Assembly: GCF_000430765.1 (NCBI RefSeq)
Contig: NZ_KE387238.1
Span: 258,113-302,349, forward strand
Origin: Peribacillus kribbensis DSM 17871
Lineage (GTDB): Bacteria; Bacillota; Bacilli; Bacillales; DSM-1321
DNA length: 44,237 nt
Direction: 5' to 3'
Every line of letters begins with the position of its first letter. Positions within the stretch are counted from its first letter, which is position 1. Below the pieces are notes generated by a model. The model had not been told where the DNA came from and ran no database searches. It saw only the letters and a program-made list of their open reading frames with translations. The translations under genes and the position numbers were made by a program. This document shows positions 39,023 to 41,405 of the stretch, in pieces.

Positions 39023-39085
39023 ATACTCGTTGCGGGACTTAACCAGGTCGCAACAGTAGGGGCCCGGTTATCCGGGCCTTTTTTG
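39023..39085 (+). ncRNA. Candidate ~62-nt small RNA
   Basis: Predicted transcript between the extended -10 promoter and a strong terminator, with no ORF. Hairpin 1: GTTGCG (39029-39034) pairs with CGCAAC (39049-39054) around a 14-nt loop GGACTTAACCAGGT. Hairpin 2 is the terminator GGCCCGG/CCGGGCC (39061-39078) followed by T6. No family recognised. It could equally be a leader/terminator with a ligand-responsive loop, but no gene follows on this strand for over 500 nt. Confidence 0.5.
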
Positions 39086-39167: not shown

Positions 39168-39222
39168 ACAAAAGCAGGTGGGGACGGTCTCCACCTGCTT
39201 TATTTTTAGGGACTTAATGGAT
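39168..39222. terminator. Hairpin/terminator related to that at 30497
   Basis: AAAGCAGGTGG-GGA pairs with TCTCCACCTGCTTT, then TTATTTTT on + and TTTTGT on the minus strand. The arm sequence ACAAAAGCAGG and TCTCCACCTGCTTTATTT matches the hairpin after kimA. Confidence 0.65.
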
Positions 39223-39550: not shown

Positions 39551-39596
39551 AAATACATATTCTTTTAACTAATCTGAAAAAACTGAGGTGAATGAC

Positions 39597-39653
39597 ATGT
39601 ATTGGACCCCATTATTTGAAATCGATGTACCCCCAGCACCCTTCTGCTCTTAA
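39597..39653 (+). CDS. 18-aa leader peptide upstream of EamA transporter
   Basis: A very short ORF, MYWTPLFEIDVPPAPFCS, with a near-ideal SD (GAGGTG, 6 nt from ATG). It is proline-rich near its end (VPPAPF). Its TAA stop overlaps an ATG in the frame of the downstream transporter (TAATG at 39651-39655). After the stop, CCTCCGTT (39672-39679) can pair either with GGAGG at 39660-39664 or, over eight bases, with AACGGAGG (39704-39711), the transporter's own SD. This is the layout of a translational-attenuation leader. Direct evidence is the ORF, SD and complementary segments; regulation is inferred. Confidence 0.6.
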   Translation: MYWTPLFEIDVPPAPFCS

Positions 39654-39654
39654 T

Positions 39655-39713
39655 GGAAGGGAGGAGCTGCACCTCCGTTAAGGGCTGTATCCAACCTAAA
39701 AAAAACGGAGGGT
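39655..39713 (+). promoter_or_regulatory. Alternative RNA hairpins masking the EamA RBS
   Basis: Hairpin A: GGAGG (39660-39664) with CCTCC (39672-39676), loop 7 nt. Hairpin B: CCTCCGTT (39672-39679) with AACGGAGG (39704-39711), loop 24 nt, which hides the SD of the transporter gene. The two share CCTCC and exclude each other. No T-run follows, so control would act on translation. Confidence 0.6.
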
Positions 39714-39718
39714 ATAAC

Positions 39719-40594
39719 ATGAAAAACACCTTATTGGGTTCTTCGTATTTAATGCTGGCTTCAAGTCTTTGGGGCGGCATGTATGTTGTAGTAAAAGTGG
39801 TTGTCTCAGTCATTCCTCCGCTGGAACTTGTTTGGCTCAGGTATGCGGTCGCGATCGTCGCACTTCTCGTAATCGGGCTGATCACCAAACAAAATTGGCG
39901 GATTCAAAAACATCATTTCTTGCTGATCATCGCCATTGGAATCATAGGCAACGCTATTTCCATCGTAACCCAGGAAACGGGCACCATGCTGTCCACGGCT
40001 CAAATGGGAGCCATTATCACGTCTGCCACACCTGCATTTATGGTTGTTTTTGCCCGATTTTTCCTCAGGGAACGAATAACGTTAAAAAAAGCGATATCCG
40101 TCCTTTTAGCAACCATTGGAGTGTTTCTCATCGTGGGCATTGGGGATCTGGATGTATCCAGCAAGCTTGGAGGCCTTTCCCTCCTAATCGCTGCCCTGAC
40201 CTGGGCACTCATGTCTGTACTTGTAAAACGTCTGCCGGATGATTATTCACAAATTGTGGTGACCGCCTATTCCATAGCAACAGCCTTAATCATATTGACT
40301 CCCTTTGTTTTACCAAGATTACATCTGCTTGAAGCCTCTCAGCTGGCACACCCGGCCATCTGGGGAGGGATTCTGTACTTGGGGATTATATCAACAGCGT
40401 GTGGATTTCTGCTTTGGAATCGAGGTTTACAGATGCTCAACGCCGCAAGCGGAGGAATATTTTTCTTCTTTCAGCCTGTGGTTGGGACCCTGCTCGGATG
40501 GCTTATTCTTGGTGAGAAGATCGGCTTTTCCTTTTGGGCTGGCTCCATTTTGATTCTAACGGGGGTCTTATTCGTTATCCGCGAAAAAGAGTAG
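39719..40594 (+). CDS. DMT-superfamily (EamA) transporter 2
   Basis: A 291-aa ten-helix membrane protein with two EamA repeats (about 5-137 and 148-288). Repeat 1 opens LGSSYLMLASSLWGGMYVVVK and repeat 2 LLIAALTWALMSVLVKRL. The start at 39719 has CGGAGGG six nt upstream and gives a normal EamA N-terminus; the frame is also open back to an ATG at 39653 that overlaps the leader peptide stop, which would add 22 hydrophilic residues. It likely exports a small molecule. The leader arrangement suggests induction by something that affects ribosomes or leader translation. Confidence 0.88.
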   Translation: MKNTLLGSSYLMLASSLWGGMYVVVKVVVSVIPPLELVWLRYAVAIVALLVIGLITKQNWRIQKHHFLLIIAIGIIGNAISIVTQETGTMLSTAQMGAIITSATPAFMVVFARFFLRERITLKKAISVLLATIGVFLIVGIGDLDVSSKLGGLSLLIAALTWALMSVLVKRLPDDYSQIVVTAYSIATALIILTPFVLPRLHLLEASQLAHPAIWGGILYLGIISTACGFLLWNRGLQMLNAASGGIFFFFQPVVGTLLGWLILGEKIGFSFWAGSILILTGVLFVIREKE

Positions 40595-40859: not shown

Positions 40860-41348
40860 TTACCCAATCATTTTTTCAAATTTAACTTGCTTGTTAATCA
40901 TATACATAATCGGCATCCCTACCGCCATTACGGCAAATTCCCCTATGGCTGTTGTCAGCCAGGTAAACAGGAAAGGCAGCCCAAAGGCAAGATGCAGCTC
41001 AAGGGCAATGAAAAACATCGTAAACGTAAAGATCAACGTGTTGAAAATCATACGTGTCCATAGGCCTTTAATAAATTTTGCAGTCATGATGGTAATCAAT
41101 AGAGCAACCAAGGACTGTCCGACTCCAAATATGAGATCGTACATCTTCATTGGGGAGAAAAACAGATTGGTTAAAAATACCCCAAGAATAATGCCCAAAA
41201 TATATTTTTTATTAAACACCACTAAGTGGTTAAAAATTTCGGAAACCCTGAACTGAATCTGGGTAAATCCAAATGGCTGGATAATGGCAGAAACCGCGAT
41301 ATAAAGAGCAGCCAGCATCCCATTTACTGCAATGGATCTTATATTCAT
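40860..41348 (-). CDS. queT: QueT, ECF-type queuosine precursor transporter S component
   Basis: A 162-aa membrane protein of the QueT family, the substrate-binding subunit of an energy-coupling-factor transporter that imports preQ1-type queuosine precursors. About five helices; family-typical blocks are ALYIAVSAIIQPFGFTQIQFRVSEIF at the N-terminus, HLVVFNKKYILGIILGVFLTNLF, and GMPIMYMINK at the C-terminus. ATG start with the SD inside the preQ1 riboswitch. The energising EcfA/EcfT module is not in this window and is usually shared. Confidence 0.93.
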   Translation of the reverse strand: MNIRSIAVNGMLAALYIAVSAIIQPFGFTQIQFRVSEIFNHLVVFNKKYILGIILGVFLTNLFFSPMKMYDLIFGVGQSLVALLITIMTAKFIKGLWTRMIFNTLIFTFTMFFIALELHLAFGLPFLFTWLTTAIGEFAVMAVGMPIMYMINKQVKFEKMIG

Positions 41349-41356
41349 CTCTAAAA

Positions 41357-41395
41357 CTCCTTAGTTTTTTATCGTGGGAGGTTCTCGAACCACGT
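41357..41395 (-). promoter_or_regulatory. preQ1-I riboswitch, translational type, leader of queT
   Basis: On the minus strand CGTGG, loop TTCGAGAACCTC, CCACG, then ATAAAAAACTAAGGAG. The GGTTC-AG and A6-CTAAGG signatures match preQ1-I aptamers. There is no terminator; instead AAGGAG at the end of the aptamer is the SD of queT, 8-9 nt before ATG. Ligand binding would therefore hide the SD and shut translation. Confidence 0.92.
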
Positions 41396-41405
41396 CAACT
41401 AAAAT

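Follow-up and report, generated by a model that had tools for sequence, protein, structure and literature searches.

In the ermC system, as laid out in excerpts of PMC10219788 and PMC12121999, a ribosome stalled on the leader ErmCL changes the pairing of the transcript and exposes the Shine–Dalgarno (SD) sequence of the main gene, and the stall codon is Ile9 (PMC12121999). Excerpts of PMC10314930 describe MsrDL of msrD, a very short leader of six residues on which a drug-stalled ribosome switches on the resistance gene, there through blocked termination at the stop codon and transcription attenuation. In Bacillus subtilis, the bmrB leader and the upstream open reading frame (uORF) of vmlR answer ribosome inhibitors ahead of the BmrCD exporter and VmlR, respectively (parts of PMC4191407 and PMC9226507), and in Bacillales the structured candidate uORFC-6-1 before hflX is thought to sense antibiotics (parts of PMC8632094). 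Here we describe a leader peptide with the motif E-x-D-x-P that precedes an EamA/DMT-family transporter gene in Peribacillus kribbensis DSM 17871, and argue from sequence comparison that it very probably belongs to an erm-type translational attenuator controlled by a new, short arrest peptide.

The window, that is, the whole stretch of DNA analysed (44,237 nucleotides (nt)), carries the locus on its forward strand. A leader SD, GAGGTG (39585–39590), is followed by an 18-codon ORF, MYWTPLFEIDVPPAPFCS (39597–39653, with its ATG at 39597–39599 and its TAA stop at 39651–39653), which is conserved in relatives. Its E-x-D-x-P core codons (39618–39632) read EIDVP and continue as EIDVPP, ENDVP being the commonest form among relatives; conservation and the footprint scan below point to the Pro codon (39630–39632) as the stall codon. 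The leader codons 3′ of this Pro form arm A (39633–39646), the partner of arm B (39654–39670) in the ribosome-free state, and arm B′ (39650–39664) lies across the leader stop and, by duplex prediction and the footprint model, would pair in the ON state with arm C. Arm C (39670–39683) is an anti-SD element that contains CCTCCGTT (39672–39679), upstream of the transporter SD, and that in duplex tests and the footprint model pairs with D (OFF) or B′ (ON). Arm D is the transporter SD itself, AACGGAGGG (39704–39712), and its eight-base pairing with C has a predicted energy of −14.6 kcal/mol (RNAduplex). The transporter (39719–40594, 291 amino acids, ATG at 39719) matches the EamA Pfam model PF00892 at 159.9 bits (E = 5.4e-47, cut-off 28.2); the nearest NCBIfam models include amino acid and amine exporters, all below their cut-offs (TIGR00950 with 98.1 bits against 230.2, YddG with 55 against 300). 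The 18-codon leader, its SD, the TAATG overlap at its stop and the CCTCCGTT/AACGGAGG pairing, all listed in an earlier note on this DNA, are present. No curated Rfam family matches the leader region at its gathering score.

The locus shares with erm/cat-type attenuators a short leader ORF that has its own SD and precedes the main gene, a main SD sequestered by upstream sequence together with an alternative helix that frees it and, in silico, a shift of pairing towards the open state when a ribosome stops within the leader (SD opening up by more than 0.2 at 34 of 53 loci). As in the excerpts on ermC/ErmCL (PMC10219788, PMC12121999), a leader ORF stands ahead of the main gene and stalling would expose its SD, but the peptide is of the E-x-D-x-P type and the target is a DMT exporter, whereas the ermC target is an rRNA methylase. 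Unlike MsrDL, as described in parts of PMC10314930, the E-x-D-x-P leader would have an internal stall codon and act by translation attenuation. A partly hidden SD is shared with vmlR, where the last stem–loop hides it (PMC9226507, in part). The bmrB–bmrCD and vmlR systems, however, concern an ABC exporter or an ABC-F protein and involve intrinsic terminators (excerpts of PMC4191407 and PMC9226507), whereas the window has no terminator-like site between 39597 and 39719 when loops of 3–8 bases are scanned; a transcriptional attenuator of the bmrB or MsrDL type was rejected for the window on this ground. SecM, ApdA and the RAPP-type arrest peptides likewise have a Pro at the arrest point, which here is a predicted one, but the E-x-D-x-P leaders lack the R-A-[P/G]-P motif, and their chains reach the Pro after 8–23 residues as against a spacer of more than 30 residues that serves, with an N-terminal localization signal, as a criterion for that class (PMC10987492, in part). 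The uORFC-6-1 candidate differs by its Arg-Leu-Arg motif and by its gene, hflX, in the parts of PMC8632094 that describe it, and the words EamA and DMT occur nowhere in the main text of that paper. We found no description of a leader before an EamA gene, or of an E-x-D-x-P arrest motif, in the open-access literature. To the extent of these searches, the principle is that of an erm-like attenuator, and neither the arrest motif nor the target class has been described; no attenuator has been described before for the DMT/EamA class in the open-access literature searched.

We propose that, when no ribosome is stalled, the leader end would fold on itself (A:B), leaving arm C available to sequester the transporter SD (C:D) and keeping the exporter off. 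A ribosome stalled at E-x-D-x-P, its A or P site occupied by the Pro codon, would cover arm A; arm B′ would then be free to pair with C, and the transporter SD would open. A ribosome that reaches the leader stop would instead cover B′, so that the gene stays off. In this model arm A is the element that makes the switch work.

Comparison with relatives confirms that the leader and the SD-masking hairpin before the exporter are real and extend far beyond the window, as a family across the class Bacilli. Among 61 genomes searched around the window, 25 loci had at least 67% identity, the window's own included, and a short upstream ORF with E-x-D-V-P was found in 23 of the 24 other closest homologues (L002–L025); the exception, L012, carries a degenerate FENDVH. 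A pattern scan of a named genome collection, combining the motif with a CTCCGTTA arm, gave 117 matches, comprising 91 leaders (86 with an automatic EamA signature and five assigned by eye) and 26 in unrelated sequence. An EamA start is visible downstream in 90 of these 91 leaders; among the five assigned by eye, the fetched stretch ends after the first EamA codons in L037 and before the gene in L140. Among the 80 of 117 loci with titles shown, the leaders represent at least 18 genera of broadly defined Bacillales, including Neobacillus, Peribacillus, Paenibacillus, Brevibacillus, Sporosarcina and Sporolactobacillus, and also occur in Bacillus inaquosorum and B. sonorensis. In the other three assigned by eye (L061, L082 and L108), the leader and arms are retained and the EamA frame is disturbed soon after its start. 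In the window's own genome, eight places match the pattern, of which only that in the window resembles a leader.

Part of the RNA is fixed by the pattern scan, and tests of covariation were therefore confined to loci identified through the transporter protein. This protein was searched for in 397 genomes from the order and in 398 from the class, and the upstream regions were then taken. Of the order-search rows that had no locus yet, all but two were fetched, whereas 30 rows of the class search became loci and 40 more were picked across its list; the rows were thus chosen rather than exhaustive, and the leader counts are no census. A short E-x-D-x-P ORF is present in 115 of 170 pooled homologue upstream regions from the class Bacilli or, since five genes are in the pool twice, in 111 of 165 distinct regions (L012 and L028 lack a proper leader and were left out; L030 is included as L228). 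The other 55 of the 170 regions are leaderless by the rule used, although the motif is present in three of those counted so (L008, L171 and L191), where the stop is shifted or comes early or the region is cut. In L008, as in L123, the leader stop is out of frame and reading continues through to arm C. The leader and the anti-SD helix occur together, with a helix of −11 kcal/mol or stronger in 100 of 114 regions with a leader against 19 of 55 without, yet these 19 leaderless regions keep a strong helix over the SD. By eye, several of the leaderless L204–L217 start just 3′ of an acetyltransferase-like reading frame and hence may be in an operon with it.

The same comparison reveals, along with the conserved leader and its linkage to EamA genes, three predicted helices that are mutually exclusive and show compensatory change: A:B at the leader end, C:D over the transporter SD and B′:C, which frees it. 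Duplex prediction over 66 loci (L190 was dropped as no SD was found, and L008 and L191 were left out) gave mean energies of −13.9 kcal/mol for A:B (weakest −5.0), −20.2 kcal/mol for B′:C (weakest −10.5) and −14.0 kcal/mol for C:D (weakest −10.5). Arm C takes forms as different as CTCTCCGTTAGG, CCTCGTCTTAGG, CTCCTTCGTTCC and CTCCGTTAAATTCG, unrelated stem sequences that each come with a matching B′ and D. When cognate arms were set against exchanged ones among 23 divergent representatives (below 75% identity; 5,000 permutations), cognate pairs were stronger for A:B (−14.0 versus −8.9), B′:C (−19.9 versus −12.7) and C:D (−13.8 versus −10.8), and none of the permutations was as good for any of the three. 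The C:D values come from an unbiased rerun, since the first swap located arm C by its match to D and so favoured cognate pairs. With the eight non-Q representatives alone, 1, 15 and 92 of 5,000 permutations were as good for A:B, B′:C and C:D, respectively.

Locus by locus, B′:C and C:D were better than one-arm shuffles at the 5% level in 20 and 19 of the 23 representatives and A:B in just 10, which makes A:B the least certain helix. Among 20 aligned ENDQP leaders, both sides had changed in 7 of 11 A:B, 8 of 15 B′:C and 4 of 9 C:D pairs, and sliding the partners by 1–3 columns lowered pairing from 77, 76 and 93%, respectively, to 36–64%. In column shuffles of this alignment, B′:C and C:D held up on each of the five measures (no more than 13 of 500 shuffles) and A:B on three; A:B failed on the number of pairs altered at both positions (125 of 500) and on further pair types (467 of 500). 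Arm B is misaligned in a few rows of alignment A1. In the window, B′:C and C:D were each better than all 200 one-arm dinucleotide shuffles, whereas 121 of 200 shuffles were as good as A:B, for which arm A is thus supported by the swap test in relatives and not above shuffles in the window itself. The window copy is a weaker variant of the switch. Folded alone, its leader region exceeds shuffled sequences in stability by only a small margin (z = −1.19; 21 of 200 shuffles are as good), and the case therefore rests on comparison with relatives.

Ribosome positions were modelled by removing a footprint whose end lies 15 nt downstream from where the P-site codon begins and then computing SD openness by folding, in 53 of the 55 divergent representatives (the two left out have no recognized SD). 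The leaders were aligned by the Pro, and the folding itself uses no peptide conservation. On average, the SD was unpaired at 0.41 when the motif Pro codon occupied the A site, at 0.35 when it occupied the P site, at 0.13 in the ribosome-free RNA and at 0.11–0.09 with the ribosome 4–5 codons past the Pro, near the stop. When the segment from the Pro to arm C was shuffled, the profile across these positions was flat at about 0.105 (318 controls); SD opening rose by more than 0.2 in 34 of 53 loci against 2 of 318 shuffles, and by 0.2 or less in the remaining 19. An earlier version of the scan, with 48 loci and another SD rule, gave a profile of the same shape. For the window, the values were 0.23 free, 0.40 at the Pro and 0.08–0.00 at the stop, or 0.14, 0.28 and 0.00 by an alternative SD rule. 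The modelled opening is modest (mean 0.41), and the scan places the predicted stall codon with a precision of about one codon. This modelled stall codon coincides with the end of peptide conservation and the start of arm A. With conservation, compensatory change and a footprint peak all in place, translational attenuation by a leader peptide and an SD-masking hairpin, the central proposal of the earlier note, is supported, although that interpretation had neither arm A nor the stall site.

The motif itself is ENDVP in 51 of the 115 leaders, ENDQP in 35, ECDVP in nine, EHDVP in six, ERDVP in four and EIDHP in two, with eight other variants seen once each, and its commonest context is LFEND[V/Q]P. 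Because the search pattern demanded E, D and P, it accounts in part for their constancy; their neighbours were not criteria. Codon and residue statistics were taken from 55 representative leaders below 75% identity. Ahead of the motif, F is found in 47 and L in 37 of the 55, and the residue preceding the motif Pro is only ever V, Q, H or T. One Pro is constant across the 55 leaders, that of E-x-D-x-P, and it ends a chain of 8–23 residues, being residue 8 in the shortest leaders (L178, L184, L186 and L247). From the next codon onward, amino-acid entropy is about 3 bits and the RNA still pairs; peptide conservation stops at the motif Pro. The motif Glu codon is GAA in 49 of the 55 representatives, against 75% GAA in the transporter genes. 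The E-x-D-x-P leaders add a sizeable candidate family, marked by a motif of its own, to the few arrest peptides known.

In a tree of 76 transporters, V-type leaders fall mainly in one branch (41 of 43 rows), and the other branch holds 13 Q-type, four other, three V-type and 13 leaderless rows. Families f1, f15 and f43 each occur at several places in the tree, which suggests horizontal exchange, though long branches leave parts of the tree unsure. Homologues lie on 11 plasmid records, eight of them from Priestia, and four of the five plasmid regions read have a leader, the one from Selenomonas having none. The exporter family appears to move between Bacilli and is found on Priestia plasmids as well. 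On two Priestia megaterium plasmids (L222 and L225), csaA stands directly upstream of the transporter, and among 86 other loci, 5 have a csaA-like ORF downstream of the transporter. Phage carriage was rejected, with no phage record at E = 1e-20, and the six viral matches to the pattern were all judged by translation to be chance. Apart from EamA and overlapping frames, no family recurs in more than 8 of the 86 leader loci as a conserved operon partner.

We infer that ribosomes stall at E-x-D-x-P and that a small molecule triggers the stall. This trigger would be toxic and exported by the pump, and a ribosome-targeting antimicrobial seems more likely than a metabolite. The short nascent chain resembles those of drug-sensing leaders such as ErmCL and MsrDL, and lone, mobile exporter genes under short leaders would fit a resistance role. 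We suggest tentatively, and with somewhat less than even confidence, that E-x-D-x-P is a new ligand-dependent arrest peptide for a natural ribosome-targeting antimicrobial, and that the EamA pump is a dedicated, horizontally spread resistance exporter of Bacilli. If so, the leader could serve as a biosensor to find that antimicrobial. As a reporter, it could reveal the inducer of the pump and, through it, a substrate class for a family of unnamed exporters.

The same switch could instead respond to a metabolite or amino acid, with the leader peptide sensing the exported compound within the ribosome in the manner of TnaC or SpeFL. Amino acid and amine exporters are among the nearest NCBIfam models, though these score below their cut-offs, so a metabolite may yet be the signal, and the acidic residues of the leader peptide are conserved. 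Both TnaC and SpeFL, however, are longer than the shortest E-x-D-x-P leaders, in which the Pro is already residue 8 (2 of the 55 representatives), and any one partner gene is shared by at most 8 of 86 loci; we regard this variant as unlikely, though of appreciable weight.

Improbable, by comparison with a peptide-dependent stall, is sensing at the level of the codon, in which a ribosome awaiting prolyl-tRNA, or slow at Pro without EF-P, would open the SD. The scan does peak when the Pro codon occupies the A site, and every counted leader has the Pro, as the pattern demands, but there is a single constant Pro codon, all four Pro codons are in use (CCC 21, CCA 15, CCT 10 and CCG 9 of 55) and the residues ahead of it (F, L and V/Q/H/T) are kept while synonymous codons vary. 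Pro-Pro follows the motif in only 2 of 115 leaders, those of the window (L001) and L005; poly-proline pausing was therefore rejected, and with it the earlier note's view that a proline-rich leader slows the ribosome. That note also had ribosomes ending the leader re-initiate at the overlapping ATG (39653–39655, forward strand), travel through hairpin B and melt the SD hairpin. This ATG is in frame and open in the window, starting an ORF at 39653–40594, and it is so in 1 of 115 leaders, the window's own; relatives keep the leader and stem pairing but not the in-frame TAATG. In addition, a ribosome modelled close to the leader stop occupies B′ and leaves the SD closed, and re-initiation is very improbable. 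A chance ORF with chance pairing in the 5′ untranslated region, to which the unexceptional single-sequence fold would be no obstacle, can practically be dismissed given the conservation, the compensatory change and the localized footprint peak.

Other RNA elements lie around the locus. Between the upstream gene and the leader, a hairpin with a T run at 39171–39201 (forward strand) scored as terminator-like, and a second (GGGCCCGGTTATCCGGGCCTTTTTT, about 39060–39085, forward strand) was not flagged by the terminator scan; the latter lies about 45 nt past a TATAAT-like box and could terminate a small RNA. On the reverse strand, a PreQ1 riboswitch at 41355–41399 (55 bits against a gathering score of 39) is the sole match above its gathering score. 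It stands just upstream of a 162-amino-acid ORF (40860–41348, reverse strand), whose product resembles a QueT-type transporter.
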